Origin: Candidatus Kuenenia stuttgartensis
GTDB taxonomy: Bacteria > Planctomycetota > Planctomycetia > Pirellulales > UBA1268
Direction: 5' to 3'
Assembly (NCBI GenBank): GCA_945870505.1
Contig: CAMBSN010000015.1
Location: 1 to 44,908, forward strand
Length of the DNA: 44,908 nt
Positions 7,566-17,301 of this stretch are shown here, piece by piece. A program made the position numbers and the translations under genes. The notes beneath the pieces were generated by a model. The model searched no databases. It was not told where the DNA came from and saw only the letters and a list, made by a program, of their open reading frames with translations. The stretch's first letter is position 1, and the number at the start of each line of letters is the position of its first letter.

Positions 7566-7928
7566 GGGAAGGCCTGAAGAAGAGGGGGCGGCGACCGTGG
7601 AACACGCGGTCCGCAACGGCCAAGAGAAGAGTACGAGTGCCATGGGAGGAGCGTCAACGAGAGGATGAAAAGGGGGCCGGCCAGCCGCCACGTCCGGGCC
7701 GGAGCCCGACGGTCGTCTCCTTCCAGTATTCACCCGGAGGGGTGTCGGTTCGGGCCATGGACCCCATTTTTTCAAGGAAATGAAGGCCGCCGTTCGGCAC
7801 GACCGATACAGCCCTTGAGGTTTCGTACAATGGTTTCGTCCACGCTCGACGGTGGCGGCCGTGAGGCCGTCCGGGTGGTGGACACCTGCCGGCAGTCTTT
7901 CAGACTGCTGGGATTCACAAACCAGACG
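7566..7928. other. Spacer between DUF1573 gene and tmRNA
   Basis: About 360 bases without a credible protein gene. It must hold the start signals of the minus-strand DUF1573 gene and of the plus-strand tmRNA. A TACAAT at 7826-7831 could be a -10 element for ssrA, with a leader of about 90 bases to be processed, but no good -35 accompanies it. A hairpin at 7889-7911 is listed separately. Confidence 0.5.
7889..7911 (-). repeat. Family A-like GAA-triloop hairpin just upstream of tmRNA
   Basis: Arms CCGGCAGTCT and AGACTGCTGG pair over 10 bp (one wobble) around TTC, which reads GAA on the minus strand. Architecture matches the family A repeats but with a different stem sequence and without CTAC. 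It ends 17 bases before the mature tmRNA 5' end. Confidence 0.6.
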
Positions 7929-8282
7929 GGGGCGTACCGGTATCGACCGGATGGCAAGAGGCCCGGATTGCGTGTCGTGGTTGGTCGGCTGGCCACGTTA
8001 AAAGTCGACCAAGCTTCAATTGCCGAAGCTCAGTTTTCTCTGGCTGCTTAACTAAGCAACCCCGAGCGATGGTCCCAGTCGGAAGGGCCTCCCAATCGGT
8101 CGCCAAATCCGACTCGCCCCGGTTCACCGCCTAGTACGGCCGGGGCTAAAAAAGTTCCGGGCTGGCCCATGACGCACCCTGTCGGCCGGGGACGCGTGGG
8201 CGAGATGCAAATCGACCGGACACACACGTAGACGTTCGTGCTGAAACATCACGGGACAGGGGTTCGACTCCCCTCGCCTCCA
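7929..8282 (+). ncRNA. ssrA: tmRNA (transfer-messenger RNA)
   Basis: tmRNA rescues stalled ribosomes with SmpB and tags the nascent peptide for proteolysis. The 5' end GGGGGCG (7929-7935) pairs over 7 bp with CGCCTCC (8275-8281) to form the acceptor stem. The T arm is AGGGG, TTCGACT loop, CCCCT. The 5' part has the tRNA-like D region (ACCGGTATCGACCGG). The tag frame ends at TAA 8049-8051 with the residues AEAQFSLAA, the usual hydrophobic LAA end. The resume codon is either GCC at 8022, giving AEAQFSLAA, or GAC at 8007 after AAAGTC, giving a 14-residue tag; I prefer the former by likeness to other planctomycete tags as I recall them. CCA is not encoded: ACT follows the acceptor stem. Confidence 0.93.
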
Positions 8283-8288
8283 CTCCAC

Positions 8289-8325
8289 GCCCGCCGGGCC
8301 ATCCATGGCCCCGGCGGGCTTTTTT
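8289..8325 (+). terminator. Rho-independent terminator of tmRNA
   Basis: GCCCGCCGGG (8289-8298) pairs perfectly with CCCGGCGGGC (8310-8319), followed by six T. It starts seven bases after the tmRNA 3' end. Its right arm is also the beginning of the family D repeat array. Confidence 0.85.
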
Positions 8326-8447
8326 GTGCGCTCGCCCTCCAGGCGAGCAGCCGATAGCGCTGCAGGCATCCATGGCCCCGGCGGGCTTTTTTTGTGCGCT
8401 CGCCCTCTAGGCGAGCAGCCGATAGCGCTGCCGGCATCCATGGCCCC
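8301..8447 (+). repeat. Family D tandem double-hairpin array (67-68 bp period)
   Basis: Two near-identical units start at 8301 and 8368, and a truncated third at 8436. Each holds the right arm of the hairpin ending CCCCGGCGGGC, a T6 or T7 run, the hairpin GCTCGCC-CTCCA/CTCTA-GGCGAGC, and a linker with CCGATAGCGCTG. The first unit with its left flank forms the tmRNA terminator. The same two-hairpin order recurs at 16011-16178. Confidence 0.85.
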
Positions 8448-8463: not shown

Positions 8464-8600
8464 GCGAGGGGCTGTCCGTGCCCCGCCGCCGGCGTTGCTG
8501 ACCAGCGAAGCCATGGATGGCGAAGCGCAGGCAGCATCGAGTGAGCGAGGGCAGGATGCCCGAAGCAAACGTCCGGCGGTGGGGCATGGACAGCCCCGAG
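8464..8600 (+). repeat. Family B structured repeat, copy 1
   Basis: The ends form a long imperfect stem of about 33 bp: GAGGGGCTGTCC continuing through GCCCC and GCCGCCGG pairs with CCGGCGG, GGGGC and GGACAGCCCC at the right end, with G-T wobbles. Inside are two smaller hairpins: a TGCTG-to-CAGCA stem and GGGCA-GGA-TGCCC. The order and fold are shared with 11104-11265. No protein gene is credible here. Confidence 0.8.
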
Positions 8601-8617
8601 CCGCCATGATCGACAGA

Positions 8618-8640
8618 CACAGGTTGAAAACCTGTGCTAC
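8618..8640 (+). repeat. Family A hairpin repeat
   Basis: Perfect 8 bp arms CACAGGTT / AACCTGTG around GAA, then CTAC. It stands 15 bases beyond the stop codon of the minus-strand DUF4432 gene and 17 bases after the family B element. Confidence 0.9.
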
Positions 8641-8655
8641 GTGGGGAGCCGCAAT

Positions 8656-9804
8656 CTACGAATGGCTCCAGCCAGCCTTCGGCTGCGGATGGATCGTCGG
8701 CACTGGAGCCACGGCCCCCGTCACCCGCCTCCGTTCGGCGTCGATCGCAGGCGCGGAGAAATGCTCGATCGCGAGGTCAAACCGCACGCTCGCCCCCGGA
8801 GCCAATGGCACCACGCGGCCCTGAGACTCCTCGAAGGACCGCGGATTCGGGTAGTTCGTGCCCGGTTCCAGACCCGTCACGTAGCCATCGGCGAGCCCGC
8901 CCTGGTTCTTCCAGAGCGAGAAACAGGGGAGCGTGTCGGCCCGCCAGGACAGGCTGGCGGCATTGCGGGCGTCGGGCCCGACGAGCAGCGCCGTGGCGAT
9001 TCCGTCGGCCGCGGGCTTCAGCCTCGCGAAGTGCACCTGCTCGCCGCGGCCCGCCTGCGGCGACACGTAGCGGCTCCAGGTCGGCACGTCGGACACCGCC
9101 GCCGCATCCCGCGGCGCCAACTCTTCGACCGTAGCCACGAGTTCGCTCCCCGGCCCAAGCAGCGGCGGCCCGAAGTTGACGTGGTAGAGCATCTGGACCG
9201 TCGTGGGCCGGTCCGAGATGTTCTTCACGATGTCGGTCCAGGACACCCGGTGGCGGTCGGCATGGAGCGTGAGCGACGTCGTCATCCGCAGCGACTGGAA
9301 GAGGAACCGGGTCTCGTCCACGGCGCCGGTCAGCGTGATCGTGCCGGCGGCCTCGTCGAGCGTGACATCGAGATGATGGGCCGGAAGATTCGCAATCCGC
9401 CCGTGCAACCCATGGAGGAGCCGGCCGGAGGCGTCGAAGTCCGGCGCGCCGTTGCTCACCAGGCCGCAGCGGGCGACGAGTTCGTCGAAGCCGTCGAGCC
9501 AGCCCAGCCCCGACGGCTCCGAGAGCGGCACGAACCGCGGATTCACCGGGCCGTGCACCGGCGACTGCCAGCCGAGTTCCACGCCACCCGCCATGATCTT
9601 CCAGATGCCGAGCCCCCGGTCGGGAAGGACCAGCACCTTCGTGTCGCCGGCGACGAGTTCCACCAGCATCACCCCCTCCCGGAGGCCGCCCGAGAGCCGC
9701 CGCGTGCGGACGGCAAGCCGACCCAAGGCCACGTCGACCCGGTCGGCGGCGAAAAACGACACTCCTCGGTGAGAAGTGATCAGTTGCAGCGTCTGTGACG
9801 ACAT
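8656..9804 (-). CDS. DUF4432 / aldose 1-epimerase-like protein
   Basis: A 382-residue beta-sandwich protein of the galactose-mutarotase-like superfamily, DUF4432 type. Segments that suggest this are GVMLVELVAGDTKVLVLPDR, then GLGIWKIMAGG, the HGRIANLP stretch with His, NISDRPTTVQMLYHVNFGPP (a mutarotase-like YHxN), and CFSLWKNQGG with YVTGLEPGTNYPNPRSFEE near the C-terminus. Likely substrate is a sugar or sugar-like compound; the reaction is not known. The frame is open far upstream, antisense to prs, but the ATG at 9804 is the sensible start because homology begins there. It is divergent from prs. Confidence 0.8.
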   Translation of the reverse strand: MSSQTLQLITSHRGVSFFAADRVDVALGRLAVRTRRLSGGLREGVMLVELVAGDTKVLVLPDRGLGIWKIMAGGVELGWQSPVHGPVNPRFVPLSEPSGLGWLDGFDELVARCGLVSNGAPDFDASGRLLHGLHGRIANLPAHHLDVTLDEAAGTITLTGAVDETRFLFQSLRMTTSLTLHADRHRVSWTDIVKNISDRPTTVQMLYHVNFGPPLLGPGSELVATVEELAPRDAAAVSDVPTWSRYVSPQAGRGEQVHFARLKPAADGIATALLVGPDARNAASLSWRADTLPCFSLWKNQGGLADGYVTGLEPGTNYPNPRSFEESQGRVVPLAPGASVRFDLAIEHFSAPAIDAERRRVTGAVAPVPTIHPQPKAGWSHS

Positions 9805-9972
9805 CGTCCGGCTCCCTTCGTCTCCTACGGCTTCCCTCAGGCGAACACAGGCAGGATACCGTGCCGATGCCGGTCCACGCAGCCCGCTTGATGCAACCCC
9901 GCCGCGCGGGCAAAGTTGTCGGTTCCGGGCCGCGGGCAACCGCAGCCTCCCCGTCGCCTCCAGAGCGATCCA

Positions 9973-10917
9973 ATGAACGACCTGAAGATTTTTAGCGGGC
10001 CGGCCAACCCTGCGCTCACGCAGGACATCTGCCGCTACCTCAACCTCCCCATGGGCAAAATCTCGCTGGGGCGGTTCCCCGACGGCGAGATCTCCTGCAA
10101 GATCGACGAGGACGTCCGCGGCCGCGACGTGTTCATCGTCCAGTCGACCTGCCCGCCGGTCAACGAGCACATCATGGAGTTGCTCGTGATGATCGACAGC
10201 TTCAAGCGGGCAAGTTCGTTTCGGATCACGGCGGTGATCCCCTACTTTGGCTACGCCCGGCAGGACCGCAAGGACTCGGGCCGCGTGCCGATCACCGCCA
10301 AACTCGTCGCCAACCTGATCACCCGGGCGGGTGCCGACCGCGTCCTCGCGATGGACCTGCACGCCGCGCAGATCCAGGGGTTCTTCGACGTGCCGGTGGA
10401 CCACCTCTACGCCGCTCCGGTTCTCAACAACCACCTCCACTCGCTCGACATTCCCAAGGACGACATCGTGGTCGTGAGTGCCGACGAAGGAGGCATCAAG
10501 CGGGCCGTGGGCCACGCCAACCGGATTGGCGCCCCGCTCGGCATCATCGACAAGAGACGGCTCTCCGTCGACACGACCAGGAGCACCACGATCATCGGCG
10601 CGAGCGTCGAGGGGAAGACCGCGATCCTGTTCGATGACATGATCAGCACCGCGGGCTCGATCTGCGGAGCCGCCGAGGTGCTCCACAAACACGGCGCCAA
10701 GGCGATCTACGCGGCAGCCACGCACGGTCTGTTGGTCGGCCCAGCAATCGAACGGCTCCGGCAGGCCCCGTTCAAACAGATCATCATCACCGACTCGATC
10801 CCGCTCACACCCGGCAAGATGCTCCCCAACGTCTCCGTGCTCTCCGTCGCCAGCCTCCTCGGCCAGGCGATCAAGCGGATCCACCGCAACGAGTCGGTGA
10901 GCATGATGTTTCAGTAG
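9973..10917 (+). CDS. prs: Ribose-phosphate pyrophosphokinase
   Basis: Prs makes PRPP from ribose 5-phosphate and ATP for nucleotide, His and Trp synthesis. The 314 residues equal the standard class I length. Motifs: the N-terminal KIFSGPANP, FPDGEISCKI, the PYFGYARQDRK flexible loop, MDLHAAQIQGFFDVPVDHL for ATP/Mg binding, and the PRPP loop ILFDDMISTAGS. The ATG at 9973 gives the canonical MNDLKIFSG N-terminus; the frame is open 57 bases further upstream but that extension is Pro/Arg-rich and unlike the family. It is followed by a hairpin and a repeat-rich spacer, then rplY. Confidence 0.95.
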   Translation: MNDLKIFSGPANPALTQDICRYLNLPMGKISLGRFPDGEISCKIDEDVRGRDVFIVQSTCPPVNEHIMELLVMIDSFKRASSFRITAVIPYFGYARQDRKDSGRVPITAKLVANLITRAGADRVLAMDLHAAQIQGFFDVPVDHLYAAPVLNNHLHSLDIPKDDIVVVSADEGGIKRAVGHANRIGAPLGIIDKRRLSVDTTRSTTIIGASVEGKTAILFDDMISTAGSICGAAEVLHKHGAKAIYAAATHGLLVGPAIERLRQAPFKQIIITDSIPLTPGKMLPNVSVLSVASLLGQAIKRIHRNESVSMMFQ

Positions 10918-10949
10918 ACACGCCGGCTCGCCATCCTGGCTCGCGACAC

Positions 10950-10979
10950 GCCGGCAATGCCATCCTGGCCATTGCCGGC
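10950..10979 (+). terminator. Hairpin downstream of prs
   Basis: GCCGGCAATG (10950-10959) pairs perfectly with CATTGCCGGC (10970-10979) around a CCATCCTGGC-like loop. No T run follows, so it is a possible transcript end or stabiliser, not a standard intrinsic terminator. A CCATCCTGG core also occurs just upstream at 10931 and in the family D array near 16022. Confidence 0.45.
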
Positions 10980-11069
10980 TGTTACGGTTCACACTTGATT
11001 CTGTCGTGTCGTCGCGGCACCGCAGCCGGCCGGAAGGACACCGGAGTTCCATAGCGAACCTGGAAGACA

Positions 11070-11092
11070 CACAGGTTAAAAACCTGTGCTAC
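11070..11092 (+). repeat. Family A hairpin repeat (AAA loop)
   Basis: Arms CACAGGTT / AACCTGTG as in the copy at 8618, with loop AAA instead of GAA, followed by CTAC. It lies 11 bases before the second family B element. Confidence 0.88.
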
Positions 11093-11103
11093 AGGGGAGA
11101 GCA

Positions 11104-11265
11104 GCGAGGGGCTGCCCGTGCCCGGGAGCCGGCGTTGCTGACAAGCGCAGCCGCGACCAATCCGCCTGCGGCGGATCGGTGCCCGGCGGAGCGCAGTCAG
11201 CATCGAGCGAGCGAAGGGCCGGAGCCCGGAGCGAGCGTCCGGCGACGGGCGCGGGCAGCCCCGAG
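11104..11265 (+). repeat. Family B structured repeat, copy 2
   Basis: Same plan as 8464-8600. The closing stem uses GGGGCTGCCC / GGGCAGCCCC where copy 1 has GGGGCTGTCC / GGACAGCCCC, and GCCCG / CGGGC where copy 1 has GCCCC / GGGGC: two compensated changes. Inner hairpins are TGCTGAC / GTCAGCA and GGGC-CGGA-GCCC. The central loop is longer by about 25 bases and carries an extra hairpin ATCCGCC-TGC-GGCGGAT. Confidence 0.8.
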
Positions 11266-11492
11266 CCTCCTCGTCAAAGCGAGAGGATCAAGTGGGGGCC
11301 GTATGAGGCCCCGCGGAGCGACGCCAAGGTTCGCCGGAGCAGTTCTCCCAGCCGACGGCTTTTTCCGAGCCCGGCGAGCGGCCATTCGCGTGTCGTGCGG
11401 CCGGAAAGCGGTGATCTTGCGAAAGCGGCTGCGGATGGCACACTTGTGGGCTTTCCACGCTTTCCCCGCCGCGTATCCCGCAGAGTTTTTCC
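11266..11492. other. Spacer before rplY
   Basis: No credible gene. It holds a short motif, TCGCTCCG-YGGGGC on the minus strand at about 11305-11322, that recurs upstream of the DEAD-box gene near 34468-34488, and presumably the rplY promoter, which I cannot place with confidence. A TTTTT run precedes the rplY ATG by two bases, and no Shine-Dalgarno sequence is visible. Confidence 0.4.
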
Positions 11493-16005: not shown

Positions 16006-16010
16006 ACATA

Positions 16011-16178
16011 CGGCCGCCGGGCCATCCTGGCCCCGGCCGCCTGAGTTTGAGGGCTCGCCTTCCGGGCGAGCGATCCTGTGCACGGCCGCCGGGCCATCGT
16101 GGCCCCGGCGGCCTGAATTTGAGGGCTCGCCTTCCGGGCGAGCGATCCTGTGCACGGCCGCCGGGCCATCGTGGCCCC
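16011..16178 (+). repeat. Family D tandem double-hairpin array (72 bp period)
   Basis: Units begin at 16011 and 16083, with a truncated third at 16155. Each has a GCCGCCGGG...CCCGGCGGC hairpin around CCATCNTGG, an A/T-rich linker (TGAATTTGAGG), then GCTCGCC-TTCCG-GGCGAGC and GATCCTGTGCA. The plan equals that of 8301-8447, with C-G to G-C exchange in the outer pair of hairpin 1. It starts five bases after the dnaB stop. Confidence 0.87.
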
Positions 16179-16180
16179 CC

Positions 16181-16249
16181 GTAGCACAGGTTTTCAACCT
16201 GTGTCTGTCCATCGCGGCGGCTCGGGCACAGGTTGAAAACCTGTGCTAC
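16181..16249. repeat. Inverted pair of family A hairpins
   Basis: A minus-oriented copy (16181-16203: GTAG, CACAGGTT, TTC, AACCTGTG) faces a plus-oriented copy (16227-16249: CACAGGTT, GAA, AACCTGTG, CTAC). The two are 23 bases apart and can pair with each other as a 23 bp stem. The CTA at 16246-16248 is the TAG stop codon of tsaD. Confidence 0.9.
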
Positions 16250-17301
16250 GGGAAGAGGCGCGTGGCGGCCCGTGCCGCGGCGGCGCGATCGGTGCCGGGC
16301 GTGACATCGAGCGCGAAGCCGTCGTCGTCGCCCCTCTCGAGACGCTCCCAGGCGATCGCCCCCATGGCGGCGTTGTCGGTGCAGAGCGACCGTGGCGGTA
16401 TGAAGACCGCGACCCTTCGCCGGCGACCAAGGACCTCCAGCGACTCTCGCAACAGCGTATTGGCCGCTACGCCCCCTCCCACCGCCACGGCACGGCAGCC
16501 AGTGCGAGCGAGGGCGAGCTCAACCTTGGCGAGGATCGAGTCGACCACCGCCTGCTGGAACGACGCGGCGAGATTGGCCAGCGGCCGACCCACCGGGGGA
16601 GGCACGTCGACCACCGCATTCGGCGGTCGCACGAGGTAGCGAAGGGCGGTCTTTAATCCGCTGAAGCTCAAATCGAGCCGGTCGCGATCGGTGGCCAGCG
16701 GCCTCGGAAGGCGATGGGCCTTGGGATCGCCTCCGGCAGCAGCCCGTTCGATCTCGGGGCCGCCCGGATAACCGAGCCCCAGCAGGCTGGCGGCCTTGTC
16801 GAAGGCCTCGCCTGCGGCATCGTCGATCGTGCCGCCGAGCCGCTCAGCATCGAGCGGGCCATGAACGTGAAACAGCGAGGTGTGGCCGCCACTCGCGACG
16901 AGGCCGACGCACGGATACGTGAACCGCTCACCGAAGGCGAGGCGACACGCATAGAGGTGTGCCAGGATGTGGTCGTAGCCCACGATCGGTACGCCGAGGG
17001 CGGCGGCGATCGCCTTGCCAGCGGAGAGCCCGACGAGCAGCGAGCCCACCAGACCGGGGCGGACGGCCACGCCCACACCCTCGATGTCGCGCTTCGTGAT
17101 CCCGGCACGTGCGACCGCCTCGTCGATGACGGGGATGATCCGCTCGACATGCGCCCGCGAGGCCACCTCAGGCACGACACCCCGCCACCGCGCATGCAAC
17201 TGCTCCTGGGTGGCGACCACGCTCGAGAGCACATCGCGGCTCCGAGAAATCACCGCGGCCGCAGTCTCGTCGCAGGTGGATTCAATCGCGAGGAGGGGCA
17301 T
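16246..17301 (-). CDS. tsaD: tRNA N6-adenosine threonylcarbamoyltransferase
   Basis: TsaD moves the threonylcarbamoyl group from TC-AMP to A37 of ANN-decoding tRNAs, with TsaB and TsaE. The 351 residues match the family. Metal ligands H111 and H115 (GYDHILAHLYA) and D309 (LCTDNAAMG) are present, with LAIESTCDETAAAV at the N-terminus, PEVASRAH, GLVASGGHTSL, DDAAGEAFDKAASLLGLGYP and the VGGGVAAN glycine loop. The TAG stop lies inside a family A repeat. tsaB and tsaE are not in the window. It follows the DUF1207 gene by 71 bases on the same strand. Confidence 0.96.
   Translation of the reverse strand: MPLLAIESTCDETAAAVISRSRDVLSSVVATQEQLHARWRGVVPEVASRAHVERIIPVIDEAVARAGITKRDIEGVGVAVRPGLVGSLLVGLSAGKAIAAALGVPIVGYDHILAHLYACRLAFGERFTYPCVGLVASGGHTSLFHVHGPLDAERLGGTIDDAAGEAFDKAASLLGLGYPGGPEIERAAAGGDPKAHRLPRPLATDRDRLDLSFSGLKTALRYLVRPPNAVVDVPPPVGRPLANLAASFQQAVVDSILAKVELALARTGCRAVAVGGGVAANTLLRESLEVLGRRRRVAVFIPPRSLCTDNAAMGAIAWERLERGDDDGFALDVTPGTDRAAAARAATRLFP

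Follow-up and report, generated by a model that had tools for sequence, protein, structure and literature searches.

We analysed a 44,908-nucleotide stretch of DNA (hereafter the window), which is contig C15 (CAMBSN010000015.1) of a planctomycete assembly of 3.35 Mb (GCA_945870505.1; 180 contigs, 87% complete), and followed up two structured segments in it, here termed copies of element B. An earlier note, made from the letters of the window, had described them as a pair of folded elements whose stems are kept by compensating changes. The copies and their parts are as follows.

8464..8600, + strand: B copy 1, 137 nt, with the base stem GCGAGGGGCTGTCC.../...GGACAGCCCCGAG, a three-way junction and two hairpin arms; covariance-model match of 147.1 bits.
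11104..11265, + strand: B copy 2, 162 nt, recognised by sequence and fold; covariance-model match of 113.0 bits.
11157..11179, + strand: additional hairpin CCAATCCGCCTGCGGCGGATCGG, nested in arm 1 of copy 2, seen as an alignment insertion and in the fold.

Sequence, fold and alignment bear out that both segments lie at these places with the compensated pairs ascribed to them. The extra nested hairpin of copy 2 is real as well and forms an insertion of 26 columns in an alignment of 31 copies. The base stem had been put at about 33 bp; the family consensus gives about 22 pairs (17 + 5), and no clean 33. The RNA fold of copy 1 reaches -102 kcal/mol (z -9.3) and the DNA fold of copy 2 has a z of -5.1, in each case with none of 200 shuffles equal. 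Rfam searches agree with the remark that no described family matches: over the window the tmRNA (transfer-messenger RNA) was the sole match, around copy 1 the best weak match had an E of 0.078, far under its cutoff, and B has no Rfam family. The tmRNA gene (RF00023, 148.8 bits) occupies 7928-8285 on the + strand, just 5' of copy 1. Between the two, at 8287-8426, lie two near-copies of a terminator-like repeat of about 68-72 nt, in which a T-run comes after a G+C hairpin.

Two copies are what the window holds; the genome holds many more. A sequence search of the own genome gives 48 B matches, 41 of them near-full, and a covariance model built from 31 B copies gives at least 150 scored matches, a lower bound, of which 136 span the whole model. 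The consensus of about 138 nt comprises a long base stem, a three-way junction and two hairpin arms. In searches across planctomycete genomes, of the kind that the earlier note had proposed, B proved to be widespread in its own family. It is present in 34 of 37 genomes of the same family, the own genome included, and in none of 23 from other families (60 genomes); among 196 genomes of the order it was found in 32 of 36 family genomes and in 0 of 160 others, 144 of which were not listed singly. Both searches used stricter filters, with which weak matches are lost. The family genomes without a match include G022, G023, G034 and G070. The two outcomes named beforehand as counting against the idea, an element absent beyond the pair and many copies aligned without covariation, did not come about.

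An exact 20-mer searched across a collection of 84,980 species recovered 55 stretches, 54 of which hold B. These 54 are metagenome-assembled genomes (MAGs) labelled Planctomycetota, Planctomycetia, Planctomycetaceae, 'bacterium' or Kuenenia, the last label being doubtful. In the sole non-planctomycete match, a Polyangiaceae MAG (L281), the element is absent, and the plasmid records contain no B match. A single pattern match in a viral contig was rejected as B, since it lies inside a reading frame and gives only a weak profile match over 38 positions (E 1e-4). The open-access literature on planctomycete repeats, miniature inverted-repeat transposable elements (MITEs) and structured RNAs returned no title about B. 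On the best reading, B is a dispersed, structured, non-autonomous repeat family for which we found no description; the family would be new, whereas its kind, that of the enterobacterial repetitive intergenic consensus (ERIC) and the bacterial interspersed mosaic element (BIME), is already known.

Conservation of the fold was assessed in an alignment termed A2, which contains 38 divergent copies (37 with less than 86% mutual identity plus window copy 1). Its structure was obtained by RNAalifold on the same alignment, with six pairs added by hand, and has 46 pairs forming the base stem, the junction and two arms, of which arm 1 includes an inner hairpin and arm 2 a hairpin. In this structure 94.9% of cells pair. 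Double-sided changes occur in 30 of the 46 pairs, compared to 15.3 +/- 2.0 after shuffling, with none of 500 shuffles coming near, and the cells with double changes number 168 versus 43 shuffled; this contrast is inflated, because the copies are related. Slid registers yield only 11 to 14 pairs with double-sided changes, a comparison that partly favours the true register since the structure was derived from the same alignment. In several A2 copies arm 1 has been swapped wholesale with pairing retained. Moreover, the GGA hairpin loops and the G-A rich internal loops are unpaired yet, as read by eye, among the most conserved A2 columns. G-A loops stack well in DNA as in RNA and are therefore compatible with either as the folded molecule. 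The fold of B looks to be under selection rather than drifting. The proposal of a selected RNA or single-stranded DNA fold is supported as to selection, but what carries the fold is a dispersed repeat of mobile type and not an RNA gene in two copies, and covariation within a repeat is no proof of a functional RNA gene.

A fold of equal importance on the two strands, or of none, should leave G·T and A·C mismatches at the same frequency. We counted them in 131 copies, which were obtained from 180 profile matches by removing duplicates and partials (137 distinct copies) and then six copies outside 128-146 nt. G·T cells outnumber A·C cells by 181 to 23, and by 117 to 20 when only one-sided changes are counted and the pair with a G·T consensus is left out. 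Because this set includes copies picked by model score, a separate test was made on 55 copies whose loci had been picked by the exact 20-mer, blind to structure, and whose consensus was folded without G-U, giving 48 pairs that are identical for both strands. Here the cells number 80 versus 15 and the pairs 26 versus 4 (p = 6e-5). The folding energies of the consensus for the + and - strands are -65 versus -19 kcal/mol in the 131 copies and -68 versus -42 kcal/mol in A2. Due to the length limit of the 131-copy set and the selection of A2, the strand and covariation counts include neither copy 2 nor other long variants. The excess of G·T over A·C indicates that the fold of the + strand is the one kept.

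Copy 2 does not stand by itself. It sits within a 321-bp element bounded by terminal inverted repeats (TIRs), which also holds a repetitive extragenic palindrome (REP).

10980..10982, no strand: target trinucleotide on the left, TGT, one change away from TGA, judged from the right side and from the empty site GGCTGAGG in the relative G015.
10983..11303, + strand: 321-bp MITE holding a REP and B copy 2, with the TIR pair TACGG...CCGTA; absent from the aligned gap downstream of prs in G015.
10983..11008, + strand: left TIR, TACGGTTCACACTTGATTC...; related TIRs occur at 40 places of the own genome (up to three mismatches) and at 0 in the control.
11278..11303, - strand: right TIR of the MITE, beginning 12 nt after B.
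11304..11306, no strand: right target trinucleotide TGA, from comparison with the empty site of G015.

The unit 10983-11303 shows the TIRs, the target-site duplication and the related autonomous element by which an IS630-type MITE (IS, insertion sequence) is recognised. The same TIRs bound elements of 287-546 bp that hold B, REP or remnants, and the flanks of these elements are of the form TNA, identical in six of 13 pairs and different in seven; those of the window unit are TGT and TGA. In relatives, two longer loci with the same ends, L173 (1157 bp) and L197 (1378 bp), match HTH_33 and DDE_3 over cutoff, and L197 also matches HTH_32, the pieces having been searched apart. Judged by these domains, the enclosed genes are apparent IS630-like transposases and parents of the MITE; the search for such a transposase covered these relatives. 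An IS5-type transposase, the first guess from the TNA flanks, was rejected when the domains were found to be IS630-like. Copy 2 very probably arrived as cargo of the MITE, since the unit inserted relative to G015 is 10983-11303 with its IS630-like ends, and not B alone. The flank of the right TIR is found beside 12 of 48 own B copies, a count biased upward because the set includes loci fetched for holding a TIR. MITE ends at up to two mismatches are limited to 14 of 60 family genomes, and transport by the MITE is therefore unlikely to explain B generally. Among the MITEs collected, six of 167-169 bp (L143, L150, L154, L158, L159 and L171) have the same left end and no B. Another, L165:1501-1817, retains just one B end (GGCTCGGGGCTGCC) ahead of its REP; from the short GCTGCC direct repeats, B looks to have been deleted between them.

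Comparison with close relatives reveals gains and losses. At the aligned place downstream of prs the unit is missing in the relatives G015 and G021, and G018 has another B copy in the prs locus (L125); the comparison extends over 18 loci, several of which, being diverged or cut, allow no judgement. A 20-kb stretch of contig C16 contains four B copies, and three sites in it were aligned to relatives, two of them informative and the third unreadable. At one site a single REP in G015 corresponds to REP-B-REP-REP-REP in the own genome. At the other, the own genome (L239:3220-3356) and G015 (L245) share B at an orthologous stop codon, with different arm-1 subtypes, and G021 has none. These differing subtypes suggest that conversion between copies or repeated insertion has taken place at this stop codon. 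A comparison of 20 copies in the relative G028 shows that conservation stops about 9 nt to either side of B. Finally, G028 and G032 have 51 and 49 B matches among 54 scored and no MITE end at up to two mismatches, which argues that B is a unit of its own.

The genes around B were analysed in sets of 95 and 158 copies, partly from loci picked by B model score, the larger set containing most loci of the smaller one. Only 2 of the 158 copies are found within called genes. For the 125 copies with both neighbours called, 57 gaps are convergent, 60 tandem and 8 divergent, compared to 22, 45 and 33 of 100 background gaps of at least 200 bp (from 52 long loci, B-holding gaps included). In tandem gaps 36 copies are sense and 24 antisense, which is not significant (p = 0.155). 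As there is no significant orientation bias relative to genes, a role in sense mRNA is not supported. REPs tagged with GTAG accompany both window copies.

8617..8640, - strand: REP palindrome GTAGCACAGGTTTTCAACCTGTGT with a GTAG tag, found by pattern search; it follows copy 1 at a distance of about 17 nt.
11069..11092, - strand: GTAG-tagged REP palindrome within the MITE, 11 nt before copy 2.

In the own genome the REP pattern occurs at 426 places with no more than one mismatch, and its reversed form at 0. Of 42 own copies, 34 have a REP (up to three mismatches) within 160 nt. Its common distance is 7-24 nt where it precedes B and 13-23 nt where it follows, and the REPs beside these copies have the same relative orientation. 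In G032 a different palindrome is located after B.

Two genes resembling REP-associated tyrosine transposases (RAYTs) were considered as movers of B. One, on contig C13, matches Y1_Tnp at 42.7 bits (over cutoff) and NF047646 at 70.5 bits (under cutoff). It was rejected, since its own palindrome GGTGCCAGCCACC lies on both sides of it, its matches extend to 23 of 60 genomes, and G022 has four matching places and no B. The other, on contig C107 (L109:1474-2199, - strand), reaches 81.3 bits with NF047646 against a cutoff of 80, has no Pfam match and is flanked on both sides by CGCAGGTTGGYAACCTGCG-GTRC, a variant of the REP, with four copies 97 nt apart on one side. It too was rejected, its strong matches (E < 1e-20) being limited to just 8 of 60 family genomes. 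A REP is expected to flank its cognate RAYT; in the stretches analysed, the C13 and C107 genes are flanked by other palindromes, not by B. Six B-rich genomes (G009, G012, G017, G019, G020 and G029), which are 85-95% complete and have 33 to 54 B matches among those scored, match neither of the RAYT types searched, more distant RAYTs being possible. Around a weak Y1 fragment on contig C19 (20.7 bits, under its cutoff), the 4.5 kb analysed contain no B end.

How does B compare with known repeat systems? We know of no transposase for ERIC. IS630 elements duplicate TA, and the unit 10983-11303, which resembles IS630-type MITEs in its TIRs, its TNA flanks and its apparent parents in relatives, differs from IS630 in that the repeated flank is TNA; B is also found without these ends. 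The integron attC is a folded, strand-specific recombination site, which provides an analogy to B only. The repeat bcr1 is considered mobile; B is similar to it in length, structured and dispersed, but has a different host, and the two are likened here by description, without sequence comparison. For bcr1, a repeat of the Bacillus cereus group, the size given in the literature is 147 bp (PMC2267715). ERIC is described in the sources cited as a 127-bp, intergenic, long palindrome with tens to hundreds of copies, confined there to Enterobacteriaceae and Vibrionaceae (PMC10969869, PMC2267715). B is like it in being of similar size, intergenic, palindromic and present in many copies, and has the long terminal inverted repeats and the dispersed, family-restricted occurrence of an ERIC-type repeat. 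ERIC, as described, folds into one long stem-loop (PMC2267715), unlike the three-way junction of B, and blastn of B against 20,395 E. coli records (E <= 1e-5) gave no match, so that no homology to ERIC was found. REPs and BIMEs are portrayed as palindromic, high-copy repeats between convergent or tandem genes and often mosaic, the REPs themselves being 20-40 bp with one hairpin tagged GTAG or CGTC, and with a RAYT for the GTAG types (PMC3733652). B shares the palindromic nature, the high copy number, the location between convergent or tandem genes and the frequent mosaic arrangement, and it frequently adjoins GTAG REPs; unlike the single hairpin of a REP, it has 137-162 nt and a multi-helix consensus of 46 pairs. 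Its ends are mostly GCGA...GAG(C) or TCG(C), and none of the 31 aligned copies has GTAG or CGTC at an end.

We consider it probable that B is an ERIC/BIME-like, non-autonomous dispersed repeat which spreads by itself too and whose + strand fold is kept for its own spread. B may also move on its own, as suggested by the G028 copies, whose similarity covers the element and no more than about 9 nt of flank on either side. Its folded + single strand, either DNA exposed in replication or RNA, would be recognised by the spreading machinery, and insertions at the 3' ends of genes might survive best. A selfish role of the fold, in propagation, fits best, because copies are gained and lost and the bias in orientation to genes is weak. 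It is conceivable, if less than likely, that B is more specifically a transposable element with the folded + strand as substrate, a three-way junction of single-stranded DNA or RNA that an enzyme would recognise by its shape. In this case arm sequences could be exchanged wholesale, provided that the pairing and the conserved unpaired G-A residues were retained, and B would be unlike both the REPs, with their tag plus hairpin, and the TIR-bounded MITEs.

Several observations weigh against self-propagation by a + strand fold. The minus strand of copy 1 is also well folded (-91 kcal/mol, z -7.2). In unpaired columns C>T exceeds G>A 2.7-fold and A>G exceeds T>C 2.6-fold, compared to 7.0-fold and 4.1-fold in paired columns, and because of this milder excess in the same direction, part of the strand bias may reflect mutational exposure of the + strand. 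Rare variants have a G·T : A·C ratio of 13:13 versus 15:3 for common ones (p = 0.03, 131 copies); the test is mixed overall, as rare changes are also biased, 16:2, in 47 own-genome copies. For B alone, neither a target duplication nor a clean empty site was found at the sites compared with relatives, for which reason its independent movement stays an inference. Even in G028 B does not always occur by itself, since 7 of the 20 copies share another palindromic module upstream. Furthermore, no enzyme was found to co-occur with B, and the neighbouring genes were called by a home-made codon scorer.

The same evidence bears on four other explanations. B could act where it stands: as an RNA element of the 3' regions of mRNAs it would serve as exonuclease barrier, RNase site or terminator, and each copy would be kept for the host. 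Convergent and tandem gaps are indeed common and divergent ones rare, G-U is tolerated in the + strand, and ERIC at 3' ends is described as altering mRNA decay in Yersinia (PMC10969869); yet the 36 sense and 24 antisense copies show no significant preference, copies come and go between close relatives, and three of 37 family genomes have no match, so we regard such a role as unlikely. B might also form the body of a REP/BIME-type unit, with a RAYT moving it by recognition of the GTAG palindromes nearby; we consider this quite unlikely. The frequent, consistently oriented REPs near B would suit this, as would the variant of that REP around the C107 gene, but B abounds in six genomes that match neither RAYT type, is followed by another palindrome in G032 and preceded by another module in the 7 G028 copies, and carries no GTAG tag at its ends.

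That B is a mere arm of the IS630-type MITE, moving only as such, seems extremely improbable to us. Copy 2 and others do lie inside the elements of 287-546 bp, whose TIRs match and whose flanks are TNA, and IS630-like transposase domains lie between the same ends in two relatives. Against this, the ends occur in far fewer genomes than B (14/60 versus 34/37), G028 and G032 are B-rich without ends at up to two mismatches, more diverged ends lying outside that search, six MITEs of 167-169 bp lack B, and window copy 1 has no TIR. Pairing might also be kept without selection, if template switching in replication copied one arm of a palindrome onto the other and thereby produced false compensation. 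Whole-helix replacements in A2 that are still complementary, such as TGCTGAC..GTCAGCA and GCTTTCTCCG..CGGAGAAAGC, are what it would leave. It predicts strand symmetry, however, where 80 G·T versus 15 A·C cells are observed, and the unpaired GGA loop and G-A residues are among the most conserved columns; we consider it very unlikely.

It has long been asked by what means ERIC/BIME-like repeats spread and whether their folds are of use to the host or to the repeat itself. B provides a data set with many divergent copies per genome throughout a family, covariation helix by helix and a measurable strand bias. Its nested carriers, the REP and the IS630-type MITE, allow independent movement to be separated from hitchhiking, and a fold that is better kept on one strand makes B a good test case for the spread of repeats.

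Two further repeats of the window involve the REP. A 52-nt inverted repeat (92%) at 8595-8646 and 16175-16226, consisting of 'CCCGAGCCGCC...' plus the REP, represents a second REP context that starts with the last bases of B; at 16175 the model search lists no B. Finally, 2 to 3 tandem copies of a 72-nt repeat occupy 16010-16180, beside an inverted pair of REPs at 16178-16252.

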